NCBI RefSeq assembly: GCF_014643735.1 | Contig: NZ_BMKA01000002.1 | Location: 62,001 to 126,000 of the forward strand | DNA length: 64,000 nt | DNA from: Neptunicoccus cionae | GTDB lineage: Bacteria > Pseudomonadota > Alphaproteobacteria > Rhodobacterales > Rhodobacteraceae | Reading direction: 5' to 3' | Shown: in pieces, positions 4,330 to 33,069 of the stretch | Position numbering within the stretch: position 1 is the stretch's first letter | Layout of the letters: each line of letters begins with the position of its first letter | Notes under the pieces: model-generated | The model's database searches: none | Told to the model about the DNA's origin: nothing | The model's input: the letters and a program-made list of their open reading frames with translations, nothing else | Position numbers and translations under genes: made by a program

Positions 4330-4339
4330 TTAGTGTACA
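4330..4339 (+). promoter_or_regulatory. Candidate operator TTAGTGTACA upstream of transport operon
   Basis: TTAGTGTACA lies about 51 bases before the substrate-binding-protein ATG. The same ten bases occur on the minus strand at 18989-18998, in the promoter of the molybdenum-hydroxylase operon. Extending to 14 bases (GTTAGTGTACATAC against ATTAGTGTACAAAC), 12 agree. The sharing suggests coregulation; the promoter elements here are not clear. Confidence 0.45.
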
Positions 4340-4390
4340 TACAGACTTGATAAAAAAACCAACCCACCAACAGACGACTCGGAGGTTCCA

Positions 4391-5674
4391 ATGAGTAAAT
4401 TGATTAAGCCTACCCCTACGTTGACGCGCCGCACCCTGCTTGGAACAGCAGCCGCAGCCGCCGCGACCCCGCTGCTGGGCCGCTATGCCCAAGCACAAAG
4501 TTCAGAGCCTATTCGCATCGGTTTTCAGGTTCACCGCACCGGCATCGGTGCCTCCTATGGGCGCTGGTATGACCGCACCACCACCGCAGCGGTTAAGCGG
4601 ATTAATGATATGGGCGGAATCAATGGCCGCCCTGTAGAGATTGTTGCCGAGGACGATGGCACCGATCCGAAACGCGGTGCCGAAGTGGTCGAAAAATTCG
4701 CAACCCAGCACAATTGCGATATCGGATTTGGTACGCTGTTTTCCCACGTTGTTTACGGTTCTGCCCCCCGTGCTGGCGAATTAAAACTGCCATATTTTGT
4801 GGTGTCCGAAGGGCATCACGTTGCATCGGGTGCATTGAACCGCTGGACCATGCAGCCTGGTATCACGGATGTGAAATCGCAGGTGCAGGCAATGGCGCCT
4901 TTTGTTGCAAACAATCTGGGTAAAAAGGTTACGATGATCTATCCCGACTTTGCGTTCGGGCATGACCACCGTGATTATTTCTCCGAAGCGATTGAAAAAC
5001 AGGGTGGCGAGGTTGTCGCCAAGATCGCCATTCCGCCGAGCGAGACCTCATTCACCAAATATTTCCCTAAGATTCCGCGGGACACCGAAGTGATCTACCA
5101 CGTCATGATCGGCCCTGCCGTTCTGACTTTTGTTAAGGAAATGGGCGAATTCTTTGGCCCGTCCAAGCCGGAAATCTTCGGCTTCCTCGACAGTCTGGAG
5201 GCGGTGGACATCAACTCCCCCGGTCTGGAATTCTTGGAAGGTACCTATTTCTGGGAGGGCAACCCCCGTTATGCGCAGGCGGACCAGTCGAGCCACGACA
5301 AGATGTACCGCGAGGCTGTGGGCGTGGATGAAAACGGGGCTTCCGTCTCCGACGCTAAAGATGTGTCCACATATTCCCATATGTTTGGGTGTTGGGAGAC
5401 ACTGAACATCATCAAGCGCGGCATGGAGGCTGCTGATTACAAAGGCACCGACGACCGCTCCAATTTAATAGAGGCGATCGAGGAAATGTCGGATATGCCG
5501 CTTTCGGATGATCATCCCCAAGGTGCGAAACGTTTCAACGGCAAGACCCACCAGACCTTCGGGCATCAGTATATTTCCAAGGTAGACAGTGGCAAACTGG
5601 TGCTGGCGCATACCTCATCAATTGAGGACACGCTGTACGAAGATGAAGTGGATTACACCACACAAAGCTTCTGA
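4391..5674 (+). CDS. Tat-exported ABC transporter substrate-binding protein (Peripla_BP_6)
   Basis: Periplasmic binding protein of the branched-chain amino acid/urea/amide class, 427 residues. The N terminus has a Tat signal: TRRTLLG followed by an alanine-rich stretch and the likely cleavage site AQA. Mature sequence begins IRIGFQVHRTG and continues with INGRPVEIVAEDD, a hallmark of this fold. Tat export is common for this class in Rhodobacterales. GGAGG lies just upstream of the ATG. The matching permeases and ATPases follow after a 293-base gap with a hairpin, an arrangement that often gives more binding protein than membrane components. The enamidase-like gene at the end of the operon suggests the ligand is an N-heterocyclic acid or amide. 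Ligand identity is inferred only. Confidence 0.88.
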   Translation: MSKLIKPTPTLTRRTLLGTAAAAAATPLLGRYAQAQSSEPIRIGFQVHRTGIGASYGRWYDRTTTAAVKRINDMGGINGRPVEIVAEDDGTDPKRGAEVVEKFATQHNCDIGFGTLFSHVVYGSAPRAGELKLPYFVVSEGHHVASGALNRWTMQPGITDVKSQVQAMAPFVANNLGKKVTMIYPDFAFGHDHRDYFSEAIEKQGGEVVAKIAIPPSETSFTKYFPKIPRDTEVIYHVMIGPAVLTFVKEMGEFFGPSKPEIFGFLDSLEAVDINSPGLEFLEGTYFWEGNPRYAQADQSSHDKMYREAVGVDENGASVSDAKDVSTYSHMFGCWETLNIIKRGMEAADYKGTDDRSNLIEAIEEMSDMPLSDDHPQGAKRFNGKTHQTFGHQYISKVDSGKLVLAHTSSIEDTLYEDEVDYTTQSF

Positions 5675-5700
5675 TCCATCAGAACAGTTGCAACTGGAGA

Positions 5701-5728
5701 GCCACCCCGCACATACACACCGGGTGGC
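5701..5728 (+). terminator. Intercistronic hairpin after the binding-protein gene
   Basis: GCCACCC (5701-5707) pairs with GGGTGGC (5722-5728) around a 14-base loop. A second small inverted repeat, TTCTGAT/ATCAGAA (5669-5684), spans the stop codon. No T tract follows. It may stabilise or attenuate the transcript between the binding-protein gene and the permease genes. Confidence 0.4.
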
Positions 5729-5850
5729 CCCCCAAGGCGGAACCGCCACATAACCGCTCAGTGGCGCGCCTTTACACTTGCAAACAGGACGGGGCATCTG
5801 CTGTGCCGTCCTTATCCAAAGACGATCACCGCTTGTGCTGAAAGCCTCTA

Positions 5851-5964
5851 ATGCCCCCAGATCCATACACTATTGATACAATCCGCCGGTTCCAGAATCT
5901 GTGCGATAGCGCACTGTTTCGCCAAACTGTTGCCGCCGCCGCAATTTCACGCGCAGGGATATAG
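5851..5964 (+). CDS. Small ORF of 37 codons immediately before the permease gene
   Basis: An ATG-started ORF (begins MPPDPYTIDTIRRFQ, ends ISRAGI) whose TAG stop lies three bases before the ATG of the first permease. The permease ribosome site CAGGGAT is inside its last codons, so translating this ORF could affect permease initiation. An in-frame TGA lies just upstream of the ATG, so it is not a piece of a longer frame. Its own ribosome site is weak. I recognise no family; it may be a coupled small protein, or chance. Confidence 0.3.
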   Translation: MPPDPYTIDTIRRFQNLCDSALFRQTVAAAAISRAGI

Positions 5965-5967
5965 CCG

Positions 5968-6894
5968 ATGGAATTTGGACCCCACCTTCTTCTCGCCTCG
6001 CTTGAGGGCGCAACCACTGCCGCCGTGCTGGCGCTTACAGCCATGGGGCTGAGCATCGTCTTTGGGGTGATGCGCGTGGTGAACGTCGCGCACGGCGAAT
6101 TTTACATGCTTGGTGCGGTGCTGGCGTGGTTCATCGCTACCAGTGTTGGCACACACCCCGCACTCGGCTTTGTTGCGGCGTTGCTGATTGCGCCGCTGCT
6201 GGTGGGGTTCCTTGCGGCCGGGGTGGACAGGCTGATCCTGCGCCACATTAACTATGATCCCGAGCGCACTATCGTTGCTACAATCGGTACGCTTTACATA
6301 CTGCAACAAACCACACTGATGACCTTCGGGCCGGATGCCCGCCCTGTGGAGCCGCCGTTCAATTCTCGCATCGCACTGCCGTGGTTTGAATGGGGTGAGA
6401 ACGGCTTTGAATTCTATTTCCCTTGGGGGTTGTCCACCACATCCTACAAACTGTTCGTGATTGCGGCTGCCGTGGTGATCCTGATCACCCTCTGGTTGGC
6501 CATTACCCGCACCAAGGCGGGGCTGATCATGCGGGCGACGCAACAGGACAGCGATATGGCCCAAGCCTTTGGTATCCCCGTAAAAACCGTCTACTCGGTG
6601 GTGTTCGGGCTGGGCGCAGGGCTGGCCGCCATCGGGGCGGTTCTGGTGGTGCCGATCCAACAGGCCTATTACCTGATGGGACACGATCCGCTGCTGTTGT
6701 CCTTTATTGTCGTAATCATCGGCGGGCTCGGGTCCCTGCCCGGCACGATCATTGCGGCCATCCTGATTGGCATTTCGGACGGTATCATTTCAGTGTTCTT
6801 CACGCCGACGCTGGCGAAGATTTTTGCCACTCTGGTGGTGGCAATGGTACTGGTGTTCCGGCCGACCGGATTGCTTGGAAAGTCAACATCATGA
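5968..6894 (+). CDS. Branched-chain-amino-acid-type ABC permease (LivH family)
   Basis: 308-residue inner-membrane permease with eight or so hydrophobic segments. GLSIVFGVMRVVNVAHGEFYMLGA near the N terminus is the LivH signature. The coupling loop that meets the ATPases lies around residues 185-205 (RATQQDSDMAQAFGIPVK). FIVVIIGGLGSLPGTI is another conserved LivH stretch. Its stop overlaps the next start as ATGA. With the LivM, LivG and LivF homologues it forms a complete importer for the ligand caught by the upstream binding protein. Confidence 0.9.
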   Translation: MEFGPHLLLASLEGATTAAVLALTAMGLSIVFGVMRVVNVAHGEFYMLGAVLAWFIATSVGTHPALGFVAALLIAPLLVGFLAAGVDRLILRHINYDPERTIVATIGTLYILQQTTLMTFGPDARPVEPPFNSRIALPWFEWGENGFEFYFPWGLSTTSYKLFVIAAAVVILITLWLAITRTKAGLIMRATQQDSDMAQAFGIPVKTVYSVVFGLGAGLAAIGAVLVVPIQQAYYLMGHDPLLLSFIVVIIGGLGSLPGTIIAAILIGISDGIISVFFTPTLAKIFATLVVAMVLVFRPTGLLGKSTS

Positions 6895-7835
6895 ACGAGA
6901 CAAGCAAATCTCACAGCCTGCATCTGGGGCTGATTGCCGTGCTGGCGCTGAGCTATTTTGTGCTGCCCGCCTATCATTCCGGCAATCTGGCCAGTGTTAT
7001 GGTCATTGCGATTTATGCGATGGGCTATAACCTGCTGTTTGGCTACACGGGGCTATTGTCCCTTGGCCATGCGCTGTTCTTTTCCGCCGGACTTTATGGT
7101 TTGGGGCTGGTGATGCATCTGGCGAACTGGACGCCGCTGCCAGCCTTTGCCGCCGGACTGATTGCCGCCCTTGTGGTCTCTGCCGTGATCGGGTTTCTGA
7201 TCCTGCGCACCACTGGCGTTGCTTTTATGATCGTGACGCTGATGTTCGCGCAGGCGGGCTATCTGACGATCCTCTACTTTGGCAAATACACCCGCGGCGA
7301 TGAGGGTTTTGCCCTGAAACAAGCCAGCCGCCAGATCGCAGGCTATGATCTGACCGATCCGGGCGTGCGCTACTTCTGCGCGTTACTGCTGTTTTCTGTC
7401 ACCCTGCTGGGGCTTGCCTATATCATTCGCGCCCCTTTCGGGCGCACCCTGATCGCCATCCGCGAAAACGAGGAACGGGCGCGGATGCTCGGTTATAACG
7501 TCACCGCGATAAAGCTGAAGGCGGTGATCCTGTCCGGCGTGGTGTCAGGTGCATCGGGCGCTACGTATGCGTTGCTGTTTGGCTATGCGGGGGCGACCTT
7601 TGCCACCGTGCAGTATTCCATTTTCCCATTGCTTTGGGTGCTGGTCGGGGGCGCGGGCACCACGGTCGGCCCCTTCATCGGCGCGTTGTTCATGTTCTAT
7701 CTGATCGACTACGCCTCTGGCAAAACCGAAGCCTACCTGCTGGTGGTCGGTGTTACGCTGGTTCTGGTCACGCTGTTCCTGCCCCATGGCATTGTGGGCA
7801 CCATACGAACCCGATTTTTAAGGTGGCTGCCATGA
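6891..7835 (+). CDS. Branched-chain-amino-acid-type ABC permease (LivM family)
   Basis: 314-residue second permease of the transporter. The ATG at 6891 overlaps the preceding stop (ATGA), which fixes the start, although the frame is open further upstream. AMGYNLLFGYTGLLSLGHALFF is the LivM counterpart of the LivH signature. The coupling region is around AIRENEERARMLGYNV. Hydrophobic segments continue to the end (LVVGVTLVLVTLFLPHGIVG). The stop overlaps the next ATG by four bases. Confidence 0.9.
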   Translation: MNETSKSHSLHLGLIAVLALSYFVLPAYHSGNLASVMVIAIYAMGYNLLFGYTGLLSLGHALFFSAGLYGLGLVMHLANWTPLPAFAAGLIAALVVSAVIGFLILRTTGVAFMIVTLMFAQAGYLTILYFGKYTRGDEGFALKQASRQIAGYDLTDPGVRYFCALLLFSVTLLGLAYIIRAPFGRTLIAIRENEERARMLGYNVTAIKLKAVILSGVVSGASGATYALLFGYAGATFATVQYSIFPLLWVLVGGAGTTVGPFIGALFMFYLIDYASGKTEAYLLVVGVTLVLVTLFLPHGIVGTIRTRFLRWLP

Positions 7836-8548
7836 TCCTGACAACACGCGGACTGACCAAAGCTTATGCGGGCGTGAAGGCTAATACCGATGTGGACTTC
7901 GATCTGCCAGCGGGCCAGACCCGCGCCATTATCGGGCCGAACGGTGCAGGAAAATCTACATTTGTCGGCATGATCTGCGGGCGCATTCCGGCCACCCGTG
8001 GCACGGTCAGCTTTGACGGGCAGGATGTCACCGCCCTGCCTGCCCACAAGCGGATCGAACGGGGCATGGCCTATACGTTTCAGATCACCTCGGTGTTTCC
8101 GGGGCTTCCGGTACGCGAGAACATTGCTCTGGCGGCGCGGCGGGGGCTTGGGCGGAACAAGGCTGCGGTACGTGCCAAAACGGACGAGGTTCTAACCCGT
8201 CTCAGCATCAGCGATCGCGCCGACCAGATGGCCGGGGATCTGTCCTATGGCCACCAACGCATTCTTGAAATCGGCATGGGTCTGGCGCAGGAACCGCGTC
8301 TGTTCATTCTCGATGAGCCCACCCAAGGGCTGGCGGAATCCGAGGTGGAGGATTTCAACGCACTGATCAAATCGTTGGATGCAGAGACCACGATCCTGTT
8401 AATCGAACACAATATGAATGTGGTGATGGAAGTGGCGGAATATATCACCGTTCTGGATCAGGGGATGGTGCTGGCCAATGGCACGCCGCAGGAAATCCGC
8501 GCCAATGCCGCCGTGCAAGAAGCCTATCTGGGGAGCGGTCATGCTTGA
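7832..8548 (+). CDS. ABC transporter ATPase (LivG family)
   Basis: 238-residue ATP-binding subunit. Walker A is GPNGAGKST; the Q loop lies near YTFQITSVFPGL; the signature helix reads LSYGHQRILEIGMGLA; Walker B is LFILDEPTQGL. LSYGHQ instead of LSGGQ is usual for this subfamily. The ATG overlaps the upstream permease stop. It energises the LivH/LivM-type channel together with the next gene. Confidence 0.92.
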   Translation: MILTTRGLTKAYAGVKANTDVDFDLPAGQTRAIIGPNGAGKSTFVGMICGRIPATRGTVSFDGQDVTALPAHKRIERGMAYTFQITSVFPGLPVRENIALAARRGLGRNKAAVRAKTDEVLTRLSISDRADQMAGDLSYGHQRILEIGMGLAQEPRLFILDEPTQGLAESEVEDFNALIKSLDAETTILLIEHNMNVVMEVAEYITVLDQGMVLANGTPQEIRANAAVQEAYLGSGHA

Positions 8549-9236
8549 ACTTTCACATATCCAGTCCGGCTATGGCCGCGTGCAGGTGCTGTTTGATGTA
8601 TCGCTAAGCGCCAAAGCGGGGGAAATCACCTGCATCATGGGGCGCAACGGGGCCGGCAAAACCACGACGTTGAAAGCGATTATGGGGATGCTGCCGCTGT
8701 CGGGCGGATCGGTCACGCTGGACGGCGTAAATCTGGCTGCGCTGCCCCCCCATGACGTGCCAAAATCCGGCATCGCCTATGTTCCGCAAGGACGGCGGCT
8801 GTTCTCCGAACTGACCGTAGCGCAAAATCTGGAGGTGGGATTGCTCCACACCAAGGACAAAGCCGCCACGCGCGAGGAAGTGCTGGACCTGTTCCCACGC
8901 CTGCGCGAGCGGTTGAAACAACAGGCGGATACCCTTTCAGGGGGCGAACAGCAGATGCTGGCGATGGGGCGCGCACTGTGCTTGCGCCCCAAGGTCCTGC
9001 TGCTGGATGAACCCACCGAGGGGCTGCAACCCTCTATGATCGACCTGATCCGCGATGTCGTATTGCAGATGAAATCCCGCAATCTGGCGGTTGTGCTGGT
9101 GGAACAGCGCATCGATGCCGTTCTGAACATCGCCGATCAGGTGGTGTTTGTGGAAAACGGCCGTTCGCTGGAAACCACAGACACCGGCGCGCTGCGTGAA
9201 AACCCCGAAAAATTGCACCATTACCTAGGCGTATAG
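8541..9236 (+). CDS. ABC transporter ATPase (LivF family)
   Basis: 231-residue second ATPase of the transporter. Walker A is GRNGAGKTT, the signature is LSGGEQQMLAMGRAL, and Walker B is VLLLDEPTEGLQP. The start at 8541 overlaps the LivG-type gene by eight bases. The stop is 12 bases before the amidohydrolase gene, so transporter and enzyme are made from one transcript. Confidence 0.92.
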   Translation: MLELSHIQSGYGRVQVLFDVSLSAKAGEITCIMGRNGAGKTTTLKAIMGMLPLSGGSVTLDGVNLAALPPHDVPKSGIAYVPQGRRLFSELTVAQNLEVGLLHTKDKAATREEVLDLFPRLRERLKQQADTLSGGEQQMLAMGRALCLRPKVLLLDEPTEGLQPSMIDLIRDVVLQMKSRNLAVVLVEQRIDAVLNIADQVVFVENGRSLETTDTGALRENPEKLHHYLGV

Positions 9237-9248
9237 AGGAGAGACCCT

Positions 9249-10412
9249 ATGGAAAAGACAGTGATCAAGAACATCGGATTATTGCTCTCCGGTCGGATCG
9301 AAGAGCCGATTCTGGACGCGGATTGCATCATTGCAATTGACGGCAAGATTAGCGAAATTGGGCGCGGCGCCGAGATGGACATAGATCAGGCGGACACGAT
9401 GGTGGATGCCAATGGCGTCACACTCGCCCCCGGATTGATTGACAGCCACATCCACCCCGTTGTCGGGGATTACACCCCGCGCCAGCAGCAGTTGCACTGG
9501 ATTGACAGCACGCTGCACGGCGGTGTGACCACGCTGATTTCGGCGGGCGAAGTGCATATGCCGGGCCGTCCCAAGGATATTGTCGGATTGAAAGCAATGG
9601 CGATTGCCGCCCAGCGCTGGTACGAAAATTTCCGCCCCTCCGGTATGAAAGTCCACGCCGGTGCGCCGGTGATCGAACATGGGATGGTGGAGGAAGATTT
9701 CAAAGAACTCGCCAATGCGGGTGTCAAACTGCTCGGCGAAGTGGGACTTGGCACCGTGAAGGATGGCAAGACCGCGCAGCAGATGGTCAGCTGGGCGCGC
9801 AAATACGGGATACAATCGACGATCCACACCGGCGGGCCGTCTATTCCGGGGTCTGGTCTGATTGACGCAGATATGGTGCTGGAGACCGGTACGGATGTTG
9901 TCGGTCACATCAATGGCGGGCATTCGGCCCTGCCCGATGACCAGATCATCTGCCTGTGTGAAAACTGTACGGCGGCGCTGGAAATAGTACATAACGGGAA
10001 TGAACGGGCGGCCCTGCTGACGCTGAACACCGCGCGGGAGTTGGGCAAACTGGATCAGGTGATCCTTGGCACGGACGGACCCGCAGGATCGGGTGTGCAA
10101 CCCCTTGGTATCATGCGGATGGTGGCGATGTTGTCCTCCCTTGGGAATGTTAAGGCCGAAACCGCGTTTTGTTTTGCCAATGGCAATACGGGGCGGCGGC
10201 GGGAGCTGGACACGGGACTGATTGAGGTGGGCAAAGCGGCTGATTTCGTGTTGATGGATCAGGCCCAACATGCGCCGGGCAAAAACATTCTGGAAAGCAT
10301 CGAACTGGGTAATCTGCCCGGTGTCGGGATGACGATCATTGACGGGAAGGTGACGTCGGGGCGATCCCGCAACACGCCGCCCGCGAACCGTTTGCCCGAG
10401 GTTGTGGGGTAG
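9249..10412 (+). CDS. Enamidase-like amidohydrolase
   Basis: 387-residue amidohydrolase-superfamily protein very like the E. barkeri enamidase as I recall it. Shared stretches include IKNIG at the N terminus, GDYTPRQ, LHGGVTTLISAGEVH, PGRPKD, the GEVGLGTVKDG segment and a SRNTPPA tail. Metal-site residues are present: HIH at residues 67/69, Glu in GEVGLG, His in IHTGG, His in GHINGG and Asp in GTDGPAG. In E. barkeri the enzyme hydrolyses 1,4,5,6-tetrahydro-6-oxonicotinate to 2-formylglutarate and ammonia. GAGGAGA precedes the ATG. Its place at the end of the importer operon and opposite a 6-hydroxynicotinate-reductase-like gene supports this reaction or a close analogue. Other cyclic amides remain possible. 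Confidence 0.82.
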   Translation: MEKTVIKNIGLLLSGRIEEPILDADCIIAIDGKISEIGRGAEMDIDQADTMVDANGVTLAPGLIDSHIHPVVGDYTPRQQQLHWIDSTLHGGVTTLISAGEVHMPGRPKDIVGLKAMAIAAQRWYENFRPSGMKVHAGAPVIEHGMVEEDFKELANAGVKLLGEVGLGTVKDGKTAQQMVSWARKYGIQSTIHTGGPSIPGSGLIDADMVLETGTDVVGHINGGHSALPDDQIICLCENCTAALEIVHNGNERAALLTLNTARELGKLDQVILGTDGPAGSGVQPLGIMRMVAMLSSLGNVKAETAFCFANGNTGRRRELDTGLIEVGKAADFVLMDQAQHAPGKNILESIELGNLPGVGMTIIDGKVTSGRSRNTPPANRLPEVVG

Positions 10413-10454
10413 AGGTTGGCATCGGGCCGGGGTCTCCTGGGATTACTCCGGCTT

Positions 10455-10548
10455 GATCACCCTGCCATTATGAAGCGTCTTACATGAAGCTTCATTTATG
10501 AAGCGTGATATATGACGCGTCTTGTATGACGCTTCATATTTGCAGGGT
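10455..10548. repeat. Palindromic dispersed element, long copy
   Basis: The element starts GATCACCCTGCC and ends TTTGCAGGGT; ACCCTGC (10459-10465) and GCAGGGT (10542-10548) are inverted ends. The inside is five tandem variants of a roughly 14-base unit close to TATGACGCGTCATA, each nearly palindromic. The whole element is also close to palindromic. It fills most of the 196-base gap between two convergent operons. A shorter copy is at 21867-21935. It could act as a bidirectional terminator or mRNA end. Confidence 0.75.
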
Positions 10549-10608
10549 CTAAATTAACCCTCTGTTAGGAAATCTGGCCAATTAGCGTGTTGCCCCTCAG
10601 CCGACCAG

Positions 10609-11547
10609 TCAGGCCGGACGCGACGCGGCCAGCTTCAAAACATCCCAATAATTCCGCCCGATCCGCATCTTATCGCCATAGCCCTTCTCCAACATCAACC
10701 GGTGCAGCCGTGGCAGGTGGCGACAGGGGACATGCATGATCAAATGATGCTCCAGATGGTAGTTCACCCAATAAGGCGCCAGAAATAGCCGCATCACCGG
10801 CCCCGCCTTGGTGGTGCGCACATTGCGCAGGGGATCATCGGAAAACTCCACCACGCCATGTTCGGCAATATTGCGCACCCGCAGCACCAGTTGGAACCAC
10901 GTCAGCAGCGGTAGCGCCCAAAACGCGAACCACCACCACCATGCCCCAACAGCCCACATCACGGCAAAAATCACTCCGTTGGCGATCAGCGCGCGTCCCA
11001 GAACCGGACCGGAAAACGCCTGCGCCAGATCCTGACTGGACATATCATCCGCTTCTCCGGCCAGCTTGAACGCCATCATGATCTGCTGGCTGCGCTGGCG
11101 AAATCCGGTCTGGCCGGTAATATCGCGCAGCAATTTGCGCCGCAGACTGGCCTTGGTGGTGGGAAAGGCGCGGGACAGGTTCAGGTCGGGATCTTCGGCA
11201 GTCTGGGTGTGCTGGTGGTGCTTCAGATGATAGCGGCGGTATTCAAACATATCCGCAAGTATCGGCCGCCCGCACAGCCACTCCCCCGCAAATTCATTAT
11301 ATTTCCGTGTCTTGAACAACGCTACATGGGCCGCTTCATGCATCAGAATTGCCAGCCCCAACTGGCGCGAGCCTATCAACATCACCGCCAACAAAAACGT
11401 CAGCACATTCGGCCAGAGCGCAAAAAACGCCAGTGCCAACGCGATAATGCCCCAGCAGTGCAGCACCAGCCACGCGCCCCAAAGATCGGAGCGGCCGTTA
11501 AAGCTGCGGATTTCCTCTGTATTCAGATAAGCACGACCCGGTGTCAT
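10609..11547 (-). CDS. Fatty-acid-desaturase-like membrane diiron protein
   Basis: 312 residues with three histidine boxes of the membrane diiron desaturase/hydroxylase superfamily: HEAAH after the first hydrophobic pair, HLKHHQH about 40 residues later, and HLEHH near the C terminus. Hydrophobic segments at about residues 30-75 and 180-220 place it in the inner membrane. The family uses O2 to desaturate or hydroxylate lipids and some other substrates. GGGAGGA before the ATG at 11547 fixes the start; the frame is open to 11571. It lies 60 bases downstream of the MarR gene and is the last gene of the molybdenum-hydroxylase operon. Lipid desaturation is the default call; the position suggests a possible catabolic oxygenase. 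Confidence 0.75.
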   Translation of the reverse strand: MTPGRAYLNTEEIRSFNGRSDLWGAWLVLHCWGIIALALAFFALWPNVLTFLLAVMLIGSRQLGLAILMHEAAHVALFKTRKYNEFAGEWLCGRPILADMFEYRRYHLKHHQHTQTAEDPDLNLSRAFPTTKASLRRKLLRDITGQTGFRQRSQQIMMAFKLAGEADDMSSQDLAQAFSGPVLGRALIANGVIFAVMWAVGAWWWWFAFWALPLLTWFQLVLRVRNIAEHGVVEFSDDPLRNVRTTKAGPVMRLFLAPYWVNYHLEHHLIMHVPCRHLPRLHRLMLEKGYGDKMRIGRNYWDVLKLAASRPA

Positions 11548-11607
11548 AGCGTCCTCCCGACAATCAAGCACAGCAATCGATTGGATCGCTGCCCCTCCCT
11601 GTCCAGA

Positions 11608-12018
11608 TCACGTCAGACGCTTCAACATGTCCAGAAAAACCTTGCGTTCCGTTTCGCTCAGGGGCGATAGCGTCTCTTCTGTCACCTTCTCCCCAAAGGC
11701 GTGAAGCTGGTCGATCACGCCTTGGCCCTGCACGCTCAGCGACACAACGGTACGCCGTTTATCGCCCGGATCGGGGCTTAATTGGATGAACCCTTTGGCC
11801 TTCAACCGTGTCACAACCCCCTTGATCGTGGCCACATCCATCGCCGTGCGCCGCCCTAAAAGGTTCTGCGAACAGGCGCCCATTTCCCCGATCCGCACAA
11901 GGGCGGCGAACTGGGTCGGGGTCAGACCCAGTTCGGAATGCTTGTTAAAAATCAGCCCGTGTCGCTGGTTGGCCAGCCGCAGGATATAGCCGATCTGTTC
12001 GTCGAGCCGGTACACCAT
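11608..12018 (-). CDS. MarR-family transcriptional regulator
   Basis: 136 residues with the MarR winged helix: LTPTQFAALVRIGEMGACSQNLLGRR leads into the recognition helix AMDVATIKGVVTRLKAKGFI, and the wing is DPGDKRRTVVSLS. MarR proteins bind DNA as dimers and usually release it on binding small aromatic or acidic ligands. Its ATG directly follows the stop of the AA_synth gene, so it is translated with the catabolic operon. It is the obvious local candidate to bind the TTAGTGTACA sites at both operon promoters; that link is inference. Confidence 0.88.
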   Translation of the reverse strand: MVYRLDEQIGYILRLANQRHGLIFNKHSELGLTPTQFAALVRIGEMGACSQNLLGRRTAMDVATIKGVVTRLKAKGFIQLSPDPGDKRRTVVSLSVQGQGVIDQLHAFGEKVTEETLSPLSETERKVFLDMLKRLT

Positions 12019-12603
12019 TCAGCGCAGCCCGTCCTTGCCTTCGGCCTCGGCGTGGGTCAACCCGCCAACGCGGGGCAAGGGGCGACCGCTGTCCGTGACT
12101 GCCACAGCCACAAGGATTTCATTGGCACGGGGCGCATCATTCATCCGCACCTCTACGCCGTCGAAATGGCTGCGCACATAGGCGGCATCTTTATGGCCCA
12201 ACGGCACGTCCAGATCCTGCCCCGGACCGCCCATTTTCTTCGACGAAGGCACCAGTGCGGCGCCTTTTTCCACAGCTTTGCGCAGGGGCGCGCCCAATTT
12301 AGGATGCAGGATCGCAGCGGCATGTTCCAACTCGCCGTTCTCCCCCACCATCGCCGCTTTACCGTAGCTTTCGGCCTGATCCGGAGTGATGCCGAGCGCC
12401 TGAACACAACGATCGCCGAGCAGCCCGCCCAATTCCGCGCCGATGTCCATCAACACGGTTAGGTCATCCTCATAGCTGCCCGCAAACGGGTTTTCGATCA
12501 CTGCAACAGCAACAGCCTTGCGCGTGGGCGGTGAAATCTCGCGGCCCATTTCCAGATGGGTTTCTTCCACCCAAACAGCGGTTTTTCTTATTTTCGCGCT
12601 CAT
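12019..12603 (-). CDS. Amino acid synthesis (AA_synth) family protein, second copy
   Basis: 194 residues, of the AA_synth family (PF06684 by memory), whose biochemical function I do not know. Visible features are AVAVIENPFAGSY, ESYGKAAMVG, GELEHAAA, the AYVRSHFD segment, NDAPRANE and the C-terminal EGKDGLR. It is clearly paralogous to the gene directly upstream and of the same length. Its start overlaps that gene's stop by four bases. Their presence between a ring-reductase-like gene and a regulator suggests a two-subunit enzyme or accessory factor in the same pathway. Confidence 0.72.
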   Translation of the reverse strand: MSAKIRKTAVWVEETHLEMGREISPPTRKAVAVAVIENPFAGSYEDDLTVLMDIGAELGGLLGDRCVQALGITPDQAESYGKAAMVGENGELEHAAAILHPKLGAPLRKAVEKGAALVPSSKKMGGPGQDLDVPLGHKDAAYVRSHFDGVEVRMNDAPRANEILVAVAVTDSGRPLPRVGGLTHAEAEGKDGLR

Positions 12604-13184
12604 CTCAAACCGTCCTTTCCGGTGATCTCATCCGCGGCGAGACCGCCGACACGGGCGTGAATGCGCGCACCGGTGCTCATCACCAGAATAAACGCCAGTT
12701 CATCGGCGCGGGGGGCATCGTTCATGCCAATCTCCATCGCGTCAAAATGGCTGCGCACATAAGACGCATTGATATGGGTTATCGGCACATCCAGCCGCGT
12801 CCCCGCTGCACCAACTTTTTTGGTGGATGGCACAATCGCCGCCGCATCCCCAAGCAGTTCGCGCATGGCATAGCCCCCCGGCGCATGCCAAAGCGCGCCG
12901 TGCTCCAGCTCTCCGGCAGTCCCCACGATGGAGCCTTTGCCATAACCCTCAACCACCGAAGCGTCCCCACCGATCAAAGCCAACGCCTTATGCGCCATCT
13001 CCAGACCCAGAGGCTTTAGATCCTCCATAAACCCTGCAATGTCAGCAACATATTCGCCCGCGAACGGGTTTTTGATTACCGCAACAGCCGCCACACGGCG
13101 CAAGGGCACCTTGGGCGCGGGGCCAAATTCGTGATGGATTTCTTCCATCGTCGTCATAATCTTGCGCACCACTACATCAGGCAT
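12600..13184 (-). CDS. Amino acid synthesis (AA_synth) family protein, first copy
   Basis: 194 residues from the ATG at 13184, which has GGAGGAACT upstream; the frame itself is open to 13205. It shares with the next gene AVAVIKNPFAGEY, VEGYGKGSIVG, GELEHGAL, SYVRSHFD, NDAPRADE and the terminal TGKDGLR. The two differ most in the segment after the conserved GAGY region and before VPSTKK. It overlaps the UPF0280 gene by eight bases. Function unknown; the conserved acidic and histidine residues (ELEH, RSHFD) suggest an enzyme active site shared between the paralogues. Confidence 0.72.
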   Translation of the reverse strand: MPDVVVRKIMTTMEEIHHEFGPAPKVPLRRVAAVAVIKNPFAGEYVADIAGFMEDLKPLGLEMAHKALALIGGDASVVEGYGKGSIVGTAGELEHGALWHAPGGYAMRELLGDAAAIVPSTKKVGAAGTRLDVPITHINASYVRSHFDAMEIGMNDAPRADELAFILVMSTGARIHARVGGLAADEITGKDGLR

Positions 13185-13992
13185 CTGCCAGTTCCTCCGT
13201 TCCAATCATCCGGCTCTGTCCCTGCAACAGCAGGTAGGCCGCTTTTATCCGTCCTTGCGTCTGCATCGCCCGCGCAAGTTTCGCACCATTTTCCAACGCA
13301 CCGGTGACATCCGCTGCGCTTATATCGCCGCATCCTGTAACGACCAACCGCGCGCCAAGATCGCTGTCAGGATCCAGCGCTTCGGCCTTTTCCCGCGTGA
13401 TAGCCGGATGGTCGGGTAAATCAACCCTGTTGGCAATCAGCGTCGCGGCGGCGTCCGCAGTCGCCGCGCAATCGGCCAGAACCGTCACACTTTGCGCGAT
13501 ACCTAAGGACAGGCTGCGCCCGCCCTGCCCGCTGGTGGCAATGCCCCCGATCCCGTCGCCGCTCTGCAGCGTCACCTTGCCCAGCGCGCTTGCGTCCAAT
13601 CCGGCGATGCCAACCTCAAACCGCTGCCCCTTGCCCAGATGCAGCGCAATATCACCGCCGTTATTCACATAAGCCCGTGTGATGCGGGCCTGCCCTAACA
13701 TCGCGGAGAGAACCTCATCCGCCACGGCCCCAGCGACGGCGGCCATCGGGGTTACGAAATCCGCATGTCCTGTCGCCGCCCGCGCCATACGCCGTGCAAT
13801 CCGGCCCTGTGGGGCAACGGGCATCGGGCTGCGCAGCAAGGGCAATTCAGAGACCAGTTCGTCAAGAACAGTGCTAAATCGCGTTTTTGCGGCTTCAAAG
13901 GCAGCTTCGCGGTCGCCTTCTGCCCCGATAATCAGATCAATCGGCCCGTGTTGCAGGTGCAACCGGTCCCCTGTGATCCAAGCCGCAATCAT
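13177..13992 (-). CDS. UPF0280 family protein
   Basis: 271 residues beginning MIAAWITGDRLHLQHGPID and continuing IIGAEGDREAAF, the pattern I associate with the UPF0280 family (ApbE-like fold). AYVNNGGDIALHL and the Gly-rich GIGGIATSGQGGRSLSLG are reminiscent of the flavin-transferase ApbE segments NIGG and ATSG. ApbE attaches FMN covalently to proteins; whether UPF0280 members do so is not known to me. Its start overlaps the reductase stop (ATGA). A role in maturing or assisting the flavo-iron-sulfur reductase just upstream is possible but speculative. Confidence 0.68.
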   Translation of the reverse strand: MIAAWITGDRLHLQHGPIDLIIGAEGDREAAFEAAKTRFSTVLDELVSELPLLRSPMPVAPQGRIARRMARAATGHADFVTPMAAVAGAVADEVLSAMLGQARITRAYVNNGGDIALHLGKGQRFEVGIAGLDASALGKVTLQSGDGIGGIATSGQGGRSLSLGIAQSVTVLADCAATADAAATLIANRVDLPDHPAITREKAEALDPDSDLGARLVVTGCGDISAADVTGALENGAKLARAMQTQGRIKAAYLLLQGQSRMIGTEELADA

Positions 13993-15410
13993 TCCGCAGC
14001 CTTCGCGCCACCTACACGGCGTTCTTTCCCGTCGAGCACTTCATCCACGTCGCGGATTTCAGCGCTATAACCGCCAAGCGCAATGTAATCGCTGCGCCGC
14101 ATCGAAAATTCTATCGGCGCGACCAGTGCTGGTGTCGGCACATAGCCAAAGGCGTTCGACGGCATCTGCGTCACGTCGGCCATCACGGTTATTCCGCCGC
14201 CGGGCCAAAGATACGCCTCTGCCCCGCCGATGGTCACTTGGGTCAGCGTATCGCGCACGGATCGGGTCAGCTTTACCGGATTTTCCGTCACTCCGGCGCG
14301 CAACGATCCCCCTGCACCGCCCATAAACAGCACTGAACAGACCGATGGTTCGCAGTTTTCGGCCACCCGTTCCGCGCTGGCACGCAAGGCTGCGGGGGCT
14401 TCGGCCGGTTGTGGCACGAGATCATCGTCCAGCTCGAAATAGGCCCATTGCTCCCCTGTGGTAGAGATCATGAACAGCCGCAAACCGGGCCATGCGACCT
14501 TGGGATTCACGTTCTTGATCACTTTCAACGGGTCGGAAATATCCGTCCCGCCCCAACCCGTGCCCGGTTCTGCCACCTGAAAATAGCGCCCCGGCGTGGA
14601 GCGGCGGCCAACCACACGAATGCCGCTTGGCGGGATGTCCAACAGCACACCGGCCTGATGTTCCGACAACACGCCAGTGATGTGATCATCCACCACAATC
14701 ACCTCATCTGCATGGCCCTTCCATTGGGCGGCAAACATTCCAATAGCAGCCGAGCCGCAGCCCACCCGCATCAGTCTTTCTTGATCTCCGTTAATGATGG
14801 GGGCCTTGCCCGCCTGCACAATCACAACAGAACCGTCGTCTATTGACAGCTCAACCGGCTCACAATTGCACAAAGCCAACAAAGCATCGCAAGTGACGCG
14901 GCCTTCCTTTTTTGAACCGCCTGTCAGGTGATCGACCCCGCCAAGGGACAGCATCTTGCTGCCGTATTCGCTGGTCATCACATGGCCAATGGCCTCCCCA
15001 TCGACACGCACGATGGCCCGTTCCTCGCCGATATGACGATCCGTGTCGATCTTAACCTTCACCCCGCAATAGCTGAAAATACCCTCGGTCACGACCGTCA
15101 CCATATCCACGCCCTTGGTCTGCGCAGAGACAATAAACGGCGCGGGTTTGTAATCGGGATAGGTGGTTCCAGCCCCGATGGCCGTCACAAACGGACGCGC
15201 GCCTTGCACGATATCACCGTCCCATTCAGCCCCTTGCAAGAACGGCACGGCAGGGCCGCCGTTTTCAATCACAGTCAGCGGATCAAGGCGTACCAATTCA
15301 CCGTCATGGTTCGCATAGCGATCACAAGCACCCGAGCGACCCTCGGCAATGAAACACAACACCGGACAGGCATCGCAGCGGATTTTTTCGACAGCAGCCC
15401 GCTCAGTCAT
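13989..15410 (-). CDS. 6-hydroxynicotinate reductase-like protein
   Basis: 473 residues. The N terminus carries a cysteine cluster IRCDACPVLCF with a further Cys in GACDRYAN (residues 12, 15, 19 and 29), fit for a 4Fe-4S centre. The rest has no motif I can assign beyond Gly-rich segments (GCGSAAIGMF, FMGGAGGSL). The sequence matches proteins I remember annotated as 6-hydroxynicotinate reductase in rhizobia and their relatives, named after the E. barkeri flavo-iron-sulfur enzyme that reduces 6-hydroxynicotinate to 1,4,5,6-tetrahydro-6-oxonicotinate. It overlaps the molybdenum hydroxylase gene by eight bases. With the hydroxylase before it and the enamidase-like gene across the gap, the annotation is consistent, but the substrate is untested. 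Confidence 0.75.
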   Translation of the reverse strand: MTERAAVEKIRCDACPVLCFIAEGRSGACDRYANHDGELVRLDPLTVIENGGPAVPFLQGAEWDGDIVQGARPFVTAIGAGTTYPDYKPAPFIVSAQTKGVDMVTVVTEGIFSYCGVKVKIDTDRHIGEERAIVRVDGEAIGHVMTSEYGSKMLSLGGVDHLTGGSKKEGRVTCDALLALCNCEPVELSIDDGSVVIVQAGKAPIINGDQERLMRVGCGSAAIGMFAAQWKGHADEVIVVDDHITGVLSEHQAGVLLDIPPSGIRVVGRRSTPGRYFQVAEPGTGWGGTDISDPLKVIKNVNPKVAWPGLRLFMISTTGEQWAYFELDDDLVPQPAEAPAALRASAERVAENCEPSVCSVLFMGGAGGSLRAGVTENPVKLTRSVRDTLTQVTIGGAEAYLWPGGGITVMADVTQMPSNAFGYVPTPALVAPIEFSMRRSDYIALGGYSAEIRDVDEVLDGKERRVGGAKAAE

Positions 15411-18156
15411 GACGCGCCTCCTTCATTGCAGCTTTCAAACGGGAGGGCGTAACCGGAACCTGCCTCAATTGCACCCCGACCGCGCGATTAATTGCATTGA
15501 TCAAAGCAGGCGCTGTGGGGATCAGCACGTGTTCCCCCAGCCCCTTGGCCCCATAGGGACCGTGGGCGTCGGGTTCCTCGATAATCAGGGTTTCAATCGG
15601 TGGAATATCCCCGATTGTCGGGATCAAATAGTCGTGCAGGTTTTCTGTGCGCCCCGGAATAAATTCTTCCATCAACGCCATGCCCAACCCCTGCGCGATC
15701 CCGCCGTGGACCTGCCCTTCCACCAGCATCGGGTTCACAGCGTGGCCCACATCATGGGCGGCCACAAAACGCACCGGATGCACAGTGCCATAGCGCGTGT
15801 CCACATCCACCACGGCCAGATGGGCGGCATAGCCGAACTGCGCGTAAGGCACGCCCTGCCCGTCCTTATCGAGCGGCCTTGTCGGCGGGTCATAAGATTC
15901 TTCAGCCCGCAACACATAACCGTCTTTGTCAGCTGGCAGGCCCTCAAGCGAAACCTCGTGCCGCGCGGCCCCGTCCCGCACAATCAGCGCACCGCCCATC
16001 GGTTCGATCACCGCAGCGGCACTGTCCACATTGCAGCGACGCAGGATCTCTGCACGCAGCGCCAGACCGGACAGCCGCGCCGCATTGCCAGAGACGAACG
16101 TCTGGCGCGATGCACTGGTTTTCCCTGCATCCGGCGTCACATCTGTATCCGCACCGATTAGGCGCAAGTATTTCACATCACAGCCAAGCGCCTGTGCAAA
16201 TATCTGGGAAATAACGGTATTTGCGCCCTGACCAATATCCATCGCCCCCTGATGCAACATAATCGTTCCGTCTTCACGCACACCGGATTTAATTGTCGAA
16301 GGGTTCGGCAAAGAGGTATTACCGCAACCATACCACCCCGCTGCAATGCCCACACCACGGCGCATATGTCCGCCTTTTGCGTTGAACGTCGCGACCTCTG
16401 CCAGCGCATCAGCCCAAGGACCACGAAGCGCCTTGAAGCACGCTTTGATCCCGACACCCTGTTCAAACACCTGCCCGCAAACGGTTGGCACACCGTTTTC
16501 AAGCGCATTGATCTCTCGAAATTCCAGCGGATCCAAATCCAGTTTGGCAGCGAGTTCGTCAAACAAAACTTCCTGCGCAATGGCGGCTTGGGGCACACCA
16601 AATCCGCGAAATGCGCCAGCGGGCGGGCAATGGGTGTGAATGCCCTTCGCCTCGGCGCGGTAGTCTGGGATTTGATACGGGCCGGAGGCATGCACCGGCA
16701 CGCGGTTGGCGACAGTCGGCCCCCAACTCGCATAAGCGCCTGTGTTGAACAATCCATCAAAGCGGAAACCCTGCAACCGCCCCGACGGATCTGCACCAAT
16801 GGTCAGCCTGATCTCCGCAGGATGGCGCTTGGTGGTGGATTGCATGGATTCCGCGCGAGAATAGGCCATCCGCACTGGTCCGTTCACCTTCAGGGCCGCC
16901 AGCGCAAGGTAGGGCTGCATGGAAATATCCAGCTTGGAGCCAAAGCCGCCGCCAACAGCCGTAGGGACTATCCTGATCCGGCTGCGATCCATGCCAAGGA
17001 TTTCTTCCATTGAATCCAAGTCCATAACCGGCGCTTGGGTGCAGCCGTGGATTTCGACCCGTCCGTCTGTCACCGTGGCAAACCCTGCTTCCGGTTCGAT
17101 ATAGGCGTGCTCTACGAAACCGGTGCTAAAGCTGCCGGTCACGCGATGGGCCGCTGCGTCCAATGCGCGGTCCGCATCGCCGCATTGCACGAAACCGCCG
17201 GTCATCACATTGCCACTGCGGCCTGAATGAAGCTGCGGTGCGTCCGGTTCCATTGCGGTGTCACAGTCCATCACGGAGGGCAATTCCTGCCAGATGACGG
17301 GAAATTCTGCCGGATCGAACCGCGCCATAAACTCGGGCGTGCCAACCACTGCGGCCACAGCTTCGCCGCGAAAACGGGTCTCGGCTACGGCAAAAACCGG
17401 CTGGTCGGCAAAGGGCGGGATCACGCCAAAGCAGTTACGCCCCTTGATGTCTGCCGCGCTTAGCACAGCCAGCACCCCGTTGGTGTGGGTACGAAATCCT
17501 TCGAGATCGCCAAATTCAAAGCTTGCCCGCGGGAACGGCGCGCGGATCACATGCACCACCGGCGTATCTGGCGGGGCCACATCATCCCCGAAAGCTTCGC
17601 GTCCTTCCACCTTTGGCACACCATCAAGCCGTCGGATTGATTGCCCCATGCCACCGAATTTGGCCAACGGCTCTGCCCCGCCCGCTGCGGCCTCTGCCAC
17701 AGCGTCGAGTATTTTGCGATAGCCGGTGCAACGGCATAAAACACCGCCAAGCGCATCTTCCATGCTGCTGTTCTTATCGCGCAAATAGGCCGTCGCCGAG
17801 ACCATCATACCCGGCGTACATATCCCGCATTGGGCTGCCCCGTGGTTTTGAAATGCCTCTGCCAGCGCTTGCGTATTCTTGTCGGTCTGCACGAGACCGG
17901 ACAGGGTCTCCACATGCCGCCCCTCGGCTTGCGCCGTTGACATCAGGCAGGCGCATACCGGCGCACCGTCAACCAGAACGGTGCAGGCGCCACAGTCCCC
18001 GGCGTTGCAACCGATTTTAACATCCCGCGCCCCGAGGCTTTCGCGCAGGGTAGCAGACAGCCGCTCGCCAGCCGTTGGACTGGCCTGCACTGGCTTGTTG
18101 TTCAGGGTGAAGGCGATCCCTTCAGGGGCAGCATCTTTCATGCGCGTTCCAGACAT
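15403..18156 (-). CDS. Molybdenum hydroxylase, fused 2Fe-2S and Mo-cofactor subunits
   Basis: 917-residue protein of the xanthine dehydrogenase family. Residues about 1-165 are the small subunit: GCNAGDCGACTVLVDG and ACL for the plant-type 2Fe-2S, then CGICTPGMM and CRCTGYRKI for the second cluster. The rest is the large subunit, with GGGFGSK, AGAFRGFGVPQA and the C-terminal GPYGAKGLGEH holding the base-catalytic Glu. Such enzymes hydroxylate N-heterocycles at an electron-poor carbon with water oxygen. Nicotinate to 6-hydroxynicotinate would fit the neighbours. The start is given at the first ATG; the ATG at 18141, overlapping the upstream stop as ATGA, is equally plausible. The FAD subunit is encoded just upstream. 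Confidence 0.85.
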   Translation of the reverse strand: MSGTRMKDAAPEGIAFTLNNKPVQASPTAGERLSATLRESLGARDVKIGCNAGDCGACTVLVDGAPVCACLMSTAQAEGRHVETLSGLVQTDKNTQALAEAFQNHGAAQCGICTPGMMVSATAYLRDKNSSMEDALGGVLCRCTGYRKILDAVAEAAAGGAEPLAKFGGMGQSIRRLDGVPKVEGREAFGDDVAPPDTPVVHVIRAPFPRASFEFGDLEGFRTHTNGVLAVLSAADIKGRNCFGVIPPFADQPVFAVAETRFRGEAVAAVVGTPEFMARFDPAEFPVIWQELPSVMDCDTAMEPDAPQLHSGRSGNVMTGGFVQCGDADRALDAAAHRVTGSFSTGFVEHAYIEPEAGFATVTDGRVEIHGCTQAPVMDLDSMEEILGMDRSRIRIVPTAVGGGFGSKLDISMQPYLALAALKVNGPVRMAYSRAESMQSTTKRHPAEIRLTIGADPSGRLQGFRFDGLFNTGAYASWGPTVANRVPVHASGPYQIPDYRAEAKGIHTHCPPAGAFRGFGVPQAAIAQEVLFDELAAKLDLDPLEFREINALENGVPTVCGQVFEQGVGIKACFKALRGPWADALAEVATFNAKGGHMRRGVGIAAGWYGCGNTSLPNPSTIKSGVREDGTIMLHQGAMDIGQGANTVISQIFAQALGCDVKYLRLIGADTDVTPDAGKTSASRQTFVSGNAARLSGLALRAEILRRCNVDSAAAVIEPMGGALIVRDGAARHEVSLEGLPADKDGYVLRAEESYDPPTRPLDKDGQGVPYAQFGYAAHLAVVDVDTRYGTVHPVRFVAAHDVGHAVNPMLVEGQVHGGIAQGLGMALMEEFIPGRTENLHDYLIPTIGDIPPIETLIIEEPDAHGPYGAKGLGEHVLIPTAPALINAINRAVGVQLRQVPVTPSRLKAAMKEARHD

Positions 18157-18959
18157 CTTTCGACTGCTTCCTCGATCATTGGCGCGACGACCTCCAGCCG
18201 GTATTGTGCGGAGCCGCGCACATCATCAATCGGGGACAAGGCGGCAAGATGGGCTGGCGTAACCAGTCCGGCGACATCACCGCGCCCCGTCAGCGCCGCC
18301 TCCAGTTCTGGCAGGCGTTGCGCCACCGGCGAACAGGCCCCGACTGCGACACGCGCTTTAGAAATCACACCATCGTGCACGTCGATCAGCACAGCCACCA
18401 TTGCGATGGAAATCACAAGATACTTCCGGCTGCCCAATTTGGTAAATGCGCCCCACCCTCCTGCGGTCTCTGGTATGTGGACTGCGGTCAGGATTTCACC
18501 TGAACGCAGGGCCGTCTTTCGCACGCCGAGGATAAATTCTTCCAGCGGTAACAAACGCTTACCAGAGGCCGAGTACAATTCCACCATCGCCCCAAGTGTT
18601 AAAAGCGGCGGCACACTATCCGCCGCCGGAGAGGCATTACACAGGTTTCCCGCAATTGTGCCTGCATTCTGGATCTGGATCGAGCCGACTTCTCTCCCGG
18701 CGGCTTTCAAGCCGTCAAATGCCGCTGGCAGGTCGGCCCGCAGAACATCGCTCCAGCTGGTTGCCCCGCCAATGCGCCAACCGTCAGGCGTTTGGGTCAC
18801 GCCGGACATCCCGTCAATCCGCGTCACGTCCAGTATCGGCCCCTCAGGCAGACGATCCCCATTCGTGGGGTAAAAATCCGTGCCACCCGCCAGAATACGC
18901 AAGCCCTCGGCCTGGGCATCCTGCACAGCCTGATCCAGTGTTGTCGGTTGGAAGTACAC
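18138..18959 (-). CDS. Molybdenum hydroxylase FAD-binding subunit
   Basis: 273-residue medium subunit of the xanthine dehydrogenase family. LRILAGGTDFYP and the segment GTIAGNLCNASPAADSVP are the two FAD-contact loops. It passes electrons from the 2Fe-2S clusters to an acceptor. The frame is open to 19010, but the GTG at 18959 is chosen: it has AGAGGT eight bases upstream and begins YFQPTTLDQAVQDA, the expected N terminus. It is the first gene of an eight-gene operon running to 10609, with a clear promoter and operator just upstream. Confidence 0.85.
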   Translation of the reverse strand: MYFQPTTLDQAVQDAQAEGLRILAGGTDFYPTNGDRLPEGPILDVTRIDGMSGVTQTPDGWRIGGATSWSDVLRADLPAAFDGLKAAGREVGSIQIQNAGTIAGNLCNASPAADSVPPLLTLGAMVELYSASGKRLLPLEEFILGVRKTALRSGEILTAVHIPETAGGWGAFTKLGSRKYLVISIAMVAVLIDVHDGVISKARVAVGACSPVAQRLPELEAALTGRGDVAGLVTPAHLAALSPIDDVRGSAQYRLEVVAPMIEEAVERCLERA

Positions 18960-18988
18960 GGGGCAGCACCTCTTGGCGGTTAATCGTT

Positions 18989-19026
18989 TGTACACTAATA
19001 AACAACCCAACCCCTGAGTCTGTCAA
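18989..19026 (-). promoter_or_regulatory. Promoter and candidate operator of the molybdenum hydroxylase operon
   Basis: On the minus strand TTGACA (19026-19021) is followed after 18 bases by TTTATT as a plausible -10. Overlapping its 3' end is TTAGTGTACA (18998-18989), identical to the site at 4330-4339 before the transport operon. Thirty bases separate it from the GTG start. A repressor there would block the promoter. Confidence 0.6.
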
Positions 19027-19861: not shown

Positions 19862-20001
19862 TATGATTTTCCCTATGTCATCCCCGCACCATTTTGTGTC
19901 GGGCTGCGTTTCATCGTTGAATAAAGGGATAATCCCCCGTTAAACTCAAGCAAATTCGTCCCCTCGGGGAAGTAACCCCCAATCCGGGATGACGAGAGAC
20001 A

Positions 20002-20742: not shown

Positions 20743-20745
20743 GGG

Positions 20746-22006: not shown

Positions 22007-22123
22007 ATGTTGCAGAAGAACTGGATTAATTTGCACCACAAATCACAGATTTCTTTTGCAAACCGCTCGGCCTTCGATACTCCTGAACATGAAGAAATTT
22101 GCGAGACATTATGGCTAAAATAA
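22007..22123 (+). CDS. Small ORF of 38 codons overlapping the DadA-like gene start
   Basis: TTAGGAGATT directly precedes an ATG, an excellent ribosome site. The ORF encodes a 38-residue peptide starting MLQKNWINLHHKSQ and ending CETLWLK. Its last 13 bases overlap the ATG of the dehydrogenase gene, whose own ribosome site is poor, so translational coupling is likely. No family is recognised. It might be a leader peptide or a small protein. Confidence 0.4.
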   Translation: MLQKNWINLHHKSQISFANRSAFDTPEHEEICETLWLK

Positions 22124-33048: not shown

Positions 33049-33069
33049 ATGCGCCCCTGCCTTGTTGTG

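Follow-up and report, generated by a model that had tools for sequence, protein, structure and literature searches.

Which compound is degraded by the enzymes encoded between positions 4330 and 19026 of a 64-kb stretch of the Neptunicoccus cionae contig NZ_BMKA01000002.1, and by which chemistry? The whole 64-kb stretch is called here the window, and positions 4330-19026 are the region analysed. We read this locus as one regulon for nicotinate catabolism by the reductive (tetrahydro-oxonicotinate) route, with a probability of roughly 0.75. The features of the sequence that carry this reading are the gene content, the homology of the enamidase, the operon structure, a 10-mer common to both operons and, in the genomes sampled, the co-occurrence of a 6-hydroxynicotinate-reductase (HNR)-like protein with a protein of the UPF0280 family.

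Gene organization and key enzymes

The region holds two convergent operons whose genes are all intact (Table 1). The operon on the + strand (4391-10412) codes for the components of a Liv-type importer and then for an amidohydrolase. The one on the - strand runs from 19010 to 10609, with intergenic gaps of -29 to +36 bases, in the order flavin adenine dinucleotide (FAD) subunit, fused Fe-S/molybdenum (Mo) subunit, HNR-like protein, UPF0280, two PF06684 proteins, MarR protein and desaturase-like diiron protein. The first-pass annotation had described two facing operons with a Liv importer, an enamidase-like protein, a Mo hydroxylase and an HNR-like protein, a description borne out by the open reading frames (ORFs), the Pfam matches and a match to the PDB entry 2VUN.

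That entry is the enamidase of E. barkeri, which the amidohydrolase matches from end to end (E=1.8e-108) with 178 of 384 residues identical (46.4%). Residues H67, H69, E164, H193, H220 and D276, which we take to be the metal ligands, are retained. The nicotinate reading of the first-pass annotation gains support from this full-length relative with its conserved metal site.

At E<=0.001 the HNR-like protein matches neither a Pfam nor an NCBIfam family. Among solved structures its best entry, 7ue2 (E=7.2e-6), has no single stretch passing, and the sole entry returned by a profile search (E=2.3) is not convincing. Relatives are encoded on 26 plasmid records, at 62-76% identity and with similar neighbours, and 17 of the 26 carry the annotation 6-hydroxynicotinate reductase. 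Passages of PMC3511419 report that an HNR-type protein of strain SG-6C is 42% identical to E. barkeri HNR. The window protein is assigned as HNR because of these annotated relatives and the reported SG-6C homology, thus through relatives and not directly from the E. barkeri or Azorhizobium HNR sequences. Nine Cys, including those of an N-terminal C-x2-C-x3-C-x9-C motif, are invariant in 44 aligned HNR rows (chosen, like the 38 UPF0280 rows used below, from larger sets). A partial clade analysis groups HNR with proteins from loci of Azorhizobium/Bradyrhizobiaceae composition and brings no refutation of the route that the first-pass annotation had favoured.

The hydroxylase is of the xanthine dehydrogenase (XDH) type, and its Mo subunit combines MoCoBD_1/2 and Fer2/Fer2_2 domains in the Pfam scan. 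Nicotinate hydroxylases are described, in passages of PMC10331938, as three-subunit FeS/FAD/Mo enzymes in a Bacillus and as having four subunits with a flavoprotein (NdhF) in E. barkeri.

Proposed pathway

Nicotinate would be taken up by the Liv importer and converted to 6-hydroxynicotinate by the FAD-type Mo hydroxylase. The HNR-like Fe-S protein would then use low-potential electrons to form 1,4,5,6-tetrahydro-6-oxonicotinate; of the 92 long loci of relatives (defined below), 30 have a linked ferredoxin-NADP reductase gene. The enamidase would release 2-formylglutarate and NH3. Being a beta-aldehyde acid, 2-formylglutarate could, on chemical grounds, lose CO2 to yield glutarate semialdehyde. 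We consider the aldehyde stage the most likely place of action of the two PF06684 proteins, and glutarate the most likely form in which carbon exits. The desaturase-like protein may be an accessory oxygenase. Nicotinate breakdown via glutarate is reported for A. caulinodans in passages of PMC3511419.

The PF06684 relative TgnF is said, in a passage of PMC7913881, to enhance the oxidation of succinate semialdehyde by stimulating a semialdehyde dehydrogenase of trigonelline catabolism; a similar effect was not found for HcdD. PF06684 protein a matches PDB 2QTP (E=1.8e-108). We take this entry to be R. pomeroyi SPO0826, since a cloning primer given in a passage of PMC2954203 agrees with its N-terminus. 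In Ruegeria pomeroyi DSS-3, according to passages of the same paper, branched-chain-type ABC genes (SPO0822-SPO0825) lie near SPO0826.

The substrate, the reaction order, the electron donor and all steps past 2-formylglutarate are what we infer for this pathway. The caution of the first-pass annotation about the downstream steps and the exact substrate was right, as sequence settles neither.

A shared operator-like sequence

The 10-mer TTAGTGTACA has exactly two copies in the 64 kb, at 4330 (+) and 18989 (-), heading both operons. The nearest relative among the matches listed is L011, a Rhodobacteraceae metagenome-assembled genome (MAG) with a 97% identical HNR, and it carries TTAGTGTACA at both corresponding places. 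Since the 10-mer heads both, the importer and hydroxylase operons probably form one regulon. The host had been called an aerobic alphaproteobacterium; the alphaproteobacterial origin is well supported by the affiliation of L011, and the aerobic habit is presumed.

Matches with at most two mismatches were counted ahead of the genes of relatives, the window and L011 being excluded and 60 shuffled motifs serving as control. Degenerate copies precede the enamidase gene in 29 of 49 relatives (shuffled mean 6.9), the ferredoxin-NADP reductase gene in 19 of 31 (4.5) and the gene of the Liv substrate-binding protein (SBP) in 10 of 17 (3.0), counts that none of the 60 shuffles reaches. They also precede the FAD-subunit gene in 36 of 83 relatives (mean 11.3) and that of NicA in 8 of 14 (mean 1.6). 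For each of these last two sets, one of the 60 shuffled motifs attained the observed count. The MarR protein, the natural candidate, is the likely regulator of both operons through TTAGTGTACA.

Conservation of the HNR locus

A scan of species genomes confirmed at least 593 HNR stretches, and the 80 best were retained. Adding 10 loci on the 26 plasmid records and 20 found in a sample of 299 Pseudomonadota genomes gives a set of 110 relative loci (L-numbers; sampled genomes have G-numbers), 92 of them long (>=15 kb). The protein lists leave out sequences that contain internal stops or X. UPF0280 is encoded in 91 of the 92 long loci, in 88 of them beside HNR, and PF06684 likewise in 88. The hydroxylase is XDH-like in 76 and NicAB-like in 13, the two types never occurring together (89 loci have one). 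As ring opener, 48 loci encode an enamidase and 23 HyuA, no locus having both at the thresholds applied, and 21 have neither within the flank; nine of these 21 come from the phylum sample, and all nine have a ring opener elsewhere in the genome. The importer SBP is of the Liv type in 18 and of a second type in 41, never of both. Loci L112, L115 and L116 unite a NicAB-like hydroxylase, HNR, UPF0280, PF06684, an ABC (ATP-binding cassette) importer and a 74% identical enamidase. In L042, L071, L078 and L086 the enamidase belongs to a divergent branch, 48-51% identical to that of the window, which may mark a different substrate.

In a tree of HNR with 110 rows, built by a quick method with several weak forks, stops in match stretches being read as X and one of the 111 loci being omitted for its too short HNR stretch, the hydroxylase label changes at least four times. 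The ring-opener label changes at least five times, a count that leaves out 28 unlabelled rows and two with both openers. HNR thus stays constant while hydroxylase and ring opener switch, as expected if the intermediates are identical.

In the sample of 299 genomes HNR is found in 21. UPF0280, searched with our own profile and with NCBIfam NF003324, is confined to these 21 genomes and present in each. Close relatives of the enamidase, at E<=1e-170, form a clade present in 11 genomes, all HNR-positive. The HyuA clade (61-71% identity to HyuA of L006) is present in 13, all within the 21, and was not found in the other 278; the best 6 candidates per genome were scored for enamidase and the best 3 for HyuA. 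The 21 HNR genomes divide into 8 with enamidase only, 10 with HyuA only, 3 with both and none with neither (Fisher p=0.001, descriptive because the sampled genomes share kinship). Note that the HyuA match crosses one stop codon in G003 and G171 and that HNR is split in two pieces in G020.

Several observations weigh against so tidy a picture. Three Granulosicoccus loci gave no UPF0280 match, namely L049 and, on contigs that are short (3,055 and 16,716 bases), L059 and L061. In L074, L077 and L080 UPF0280 is not adjacent to HNR. The HNR-negative genome G297 gives a marginal UPF0280 match of 61 residues (E=2.6e-4), which vanishes with NF003324. The mutual exclusion of enamidase and HyuA seen in loci fails genome-wide, as the 3 of 21 genomes with both illustrate; L003 has an enamidase plus a HyuAB 41-43% identical to that of L006, under the 55% threshold for HyuA; and two more distant enamidase-like matches (about 1e-102) lie in HNR-negative genomes.

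UPF0280 and the alternative ring opener

UPF0280 (COG2122) shows the fold of ApbE flavin transferases, and E. barkeri HNR reportedly has a covalent flavin. Because UPF0280 occurs in the same 21 genomes as HNR, lies beside it and has the ApbE fold, it is a candidate HNR maturation factor, and maturation of HNR is its most likely role. The catalytic Ser-His-Asp of ApbE in V. cholerae is Ser241, His257 and Asp285. In UPF0280, S154 and D180 are invariant in 38 of 38 rows, their correspondence to ApbE residues being tentative and drawn from motifs. Two differences from ApbE/Ftp flavin transferases qualify the maturase reading: in the 38 UPF0280 rows no conserved His was seen near S154, D180 or the GRS motif, and the ApbE target motif D-x-x-[ST]-G-A-[ST] is found in 0 of 54 HNR rows. 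A parallel is offered by Desulfovibrio, where passages of PMC5764234 state that COG2122 is needed with DUF39 for homocysteine synthesis, its role there being unknown; the same family thus acts with a partner protein in that system. DUF39 (PF01837) is found in 0 of the 299 Pseudomonadota genomes, with 3 of 14 control genomes positive.

For the HyuAB proteins of L006 (4523-8274) the nearest NCBIfam models are those of caprolactamase CapAB, with scores (E=9.6e-144 and 4.6e-89) that fall far short of the curated cut-offs. These caprolactamase and hydantoinase/oxoprolinase models are the nearest to HNR-linked HyuAB in loci without a linked enamidase; HyuAB was not flagged in the window. Since every sampled HNR genome has enamidase and/or HyuA and the clade was found in none of the other sampled genomes, the data suggest that the HNR-linked HyuA clade is an alternative ring opener. 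Taking both subjects together, UPF0280 might be a dedicated, His-independent ApbE-fold maturase that places the covalent flavin of HNR at a new site, and the distinct HyuAB clade might be the ATP-dependent counterpart of enamidase; this joint proposal is tentative, and we would sooner expect it to fail in some part than to hold. No report of the HNR-UPF0280 pairing or of the HNR-linked HyuA clade was found in the open-licence literature (titles, abstract starts and a few passages).

Other possible substrates

Trigonelline, homarine or picolinate, pyridine carboxylates that are N-methylated or isomeric, could enter the same chain after demethylation or hydroxylation by an accessory oxygenase. 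Rieske oxygenases are encoded in 17 of the 92 long loci, 16 of them with the second SBP type, and the one scanned (L006) has a vanillate-O-demethylase-type C-terminal domain (PF19112). In L005 a TauD-family (trimethyllysine-dioxygenase-like) gene (17410-18336) lies downstream of the core, at the position that the Rieske gene takes in some loci. The catabolic operon of the window is itself closed by a diiron oxygenase-like gene, whose product has the His boxes HEAAH, HLKHH and HLEHH and matches the NCBIfam model of the GntB arginine hydroxylase (E=1.3e-31), below cut-off. This gene is, however, restricted to the window and L011 among 111 loci (L011 alone of the 110 relatives), none of the 18 long loci with the Liv SBP type, to which the importer of the window belongs, has a Rieske gene, and the identity of enamidases to that of the window is alike in loci with and without a Rieske gene. 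As for homarine, the enzyme Mgd is presumably methylglutamate dehydrogenase. Its part in homarine catabolism, stated in a passage of a 2026 paper (PMC13390433) that cites the report of the homarine pathway, suggests a different route. For the window an N-methylated or isomeric pyridine is unlikely, because its importer type does not accompany the Rieske gene in these loci, though the diiron protein keeps the idea in play.

A non-pyridine lactam or cyclic imide, with the HNR-like protein reducing some other conjugated amide, is very improbable. The resemblance of the relatives' alternative ring opener to CapAB, at scores far under the curated cut-offs, would agree with it; however, the XDH- or NicAB-type Mo hydroxylase in 89 of 92 long loci (76 + 13) argues for an N-heteroaromatic starting compound, and the enamidase relative whose function is known hydrolyses tetrahydro-oxonicotinate. 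A locus for amino-acid biosynthesis, which the Liv transporter and the name of PF06684 (assigned to amino acid synthesis from fold and genome context in passages of PMC2954203) could suggest, is scarcely credible in catabolic surroundings of importer, hydroxylase, enamidase and MarR, the more so as the relatives TgnF and HcdD serve trigonelline and coumarin catabolism according to a passage of PMC7913881.

Comparison with known systems

Clusters of a similar kind are known for nicotinate, the substrate that we favour. Those of A. caulinodans ORS571 and Bradyrhizobiaceae (SG-6C, USDA110, HaA2) are reported in passages of PMC3511419 to encode the enzymes of the first three steps together with an ABC transporter and two unknown proteins. 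The window matches them in the linked ABC importer and in two conserved unknown proteins, which would be UPF0280 and PF06684. Loci L111-L116, their likely counterparts, encode a hydroxylase of NicAB type and a single PF06684 protein, whereas the window has a fused FAD-type hydroxylase, two PF06684 proteins and the desaturase-like gene. The cluster type is therefore already in print for four strains (PMC3511419), and these three features are what the window adds. The novelty implied by the first-pass annotation was overstated, both since importer linkage and extra genes are described for those strains in the same passages and since the HNR cluster is not a rare one (at least 593 stretches; 21 of the 299 Pseudomonadota genomes).

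The E. barkeri cluster (ndhFSLM, hnr, ena) is alike in its first three reactions, in its enamidase (identity given above) and in a hydroxylase with an FAD subunit; its Mo protein is split into NdhL and NdhM, whereas that of the window is fused with the Fe-S part. None of the scanned window genes was recognised as one of the fermentative genes of E. barkeri, which code for 2-(hydroxymethyl)glutarate dehydrogenase and methyleneglutarate mutase, no search by name having been made. The nic (maleamate) pathway of Pseudomonas putida likewise begins with nicotinate 6-hydroxylation and, to our knowledge, operates without HNR and enamidase. Its ring opening is described as oxidative, unlike that of the window route.

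Feature coordinates and neighbouring genes

Two starts in Table 1 call for comment. That of LivM was re-set to 6891 from the listed TTG at 6423, and the true start of the FAD subunit probably lies downstream of its listed TTG. The first-pass annotation had bounded the locus at 4330-19026; its + strand start coincides exactly with a copy of TTAGTGTACA, and the membrane-protein gene at 2946-4310, left outside, seems to belong to the cluster too. At E<=0.001 the product of this gene matches nothing in Pfam or NCBIfam; relatives (>=33% identity) are encoded in 13 of the 92 long loci, 13 of 13 with a Liv SBP, a count that omits L009 and L128, where a different protein of unknown kind, not shown to be homologous, is encoded.

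Table 1. Features of the nicotinate-type locus and its borders, in window coordinates.
Feature	Position	Strand	Basis or remark
Multi-pass membrane protein, 454 aa, probable Liv importer partner	2946..4310	+	outside 4330-19026
Operator-like 10-mer TTAGTGTACA ahead of import operon	4330..4339	+	one of 2 exact copies in 64 kb
Liv-type ABC SBP	4391..5674	+	PF13458 E=2.1e-48
Liv-type permease LivH	5968..6894	+	ORF; relatives 63-98% identical near Liv SBP in most Liv-bearing loci
Putative Liv-type permease LivM	6891..7835	+	named from position and sequence
Putative Liv-type ATPase LivG	7832..8548	+	Walker-type motif by eye
Putative Liv-type ATPase LivF	8541..9236	+	
Putative enamidase	9249..10412	+	full-length PDB 2VUN match
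Fatty-acid-desaturase-like diiron membrane protein, final gene of catabolic operon	10609..11571	-	PF00487 E=7.7e-37
MarR-type regulator	11608..12018	-	PF01047 E=2.8e-12
PF06684 (AA_synth/DUF1185) protein a	12019..12603	-	PF06684 E=1.6e-73
PF06684 protein b	12600..13205	-	PF06684 E=2.3e-69
UPF0280/COG2122 ApbE-fold protein, candidate HNR maturation factor	13177..13992	-	
HNR-like Fe-S protein, 473 aa	13989..15410	-	relatives annotated HNR
Mo hydroxylase, fused [2Fe-2S] + molybdopterin subunit, 917 aa	15403..18156	-	PF02738, PF20256, PF01799, PF00111
FAD subunit of Mo hydroxylase	18138..19010	-	PF00941 E=3.9e-39; listed TTG start
Second copy of operator-like 10-mer TTAGTGTACA	18989..18998	-	inside listed FAD-subunit ORF, just past its TTG

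Between the 3' ends of the facing operons (10469-10539) lies a tandem array of five 14-bp units (TATGAAGCGTCATA). Directly beside the cluster, 19091-21510 codes for a polar-amino-acid ABC importer, followed by a D-amino-acid-dehydrogenase-like gene (22099-23349). Further on, a row of genes (32314-35335) like those of EutA/arylmalonate decarboxylase, an Xaa-Pro/ectoine-hydrolase-type peptidase and diaminopropionate ammonia-lyase is possibly a separate small catabolic operon.

Implications

The function of COG2122 becomes testable here because HNR is its obvious partner protein, and so does the nature of the ring-opening enzyme in HNR bacteria without enamidase (10 of the 21 sampled). If the joint proposal for UPF0280 and HyuAB is true, the reductive nicotinate route has two interchangeable ring-opening forms. 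PF06684, whose first structures were interpreted in terms of amino-acid metabolism (passages of PMC2954203), gains a catabolic context. A fair share of Proteobacteria, represented here by marine Rhodobacteraceae kin, may degrade nicotinate by a route for which a fermenter is the best-known example.

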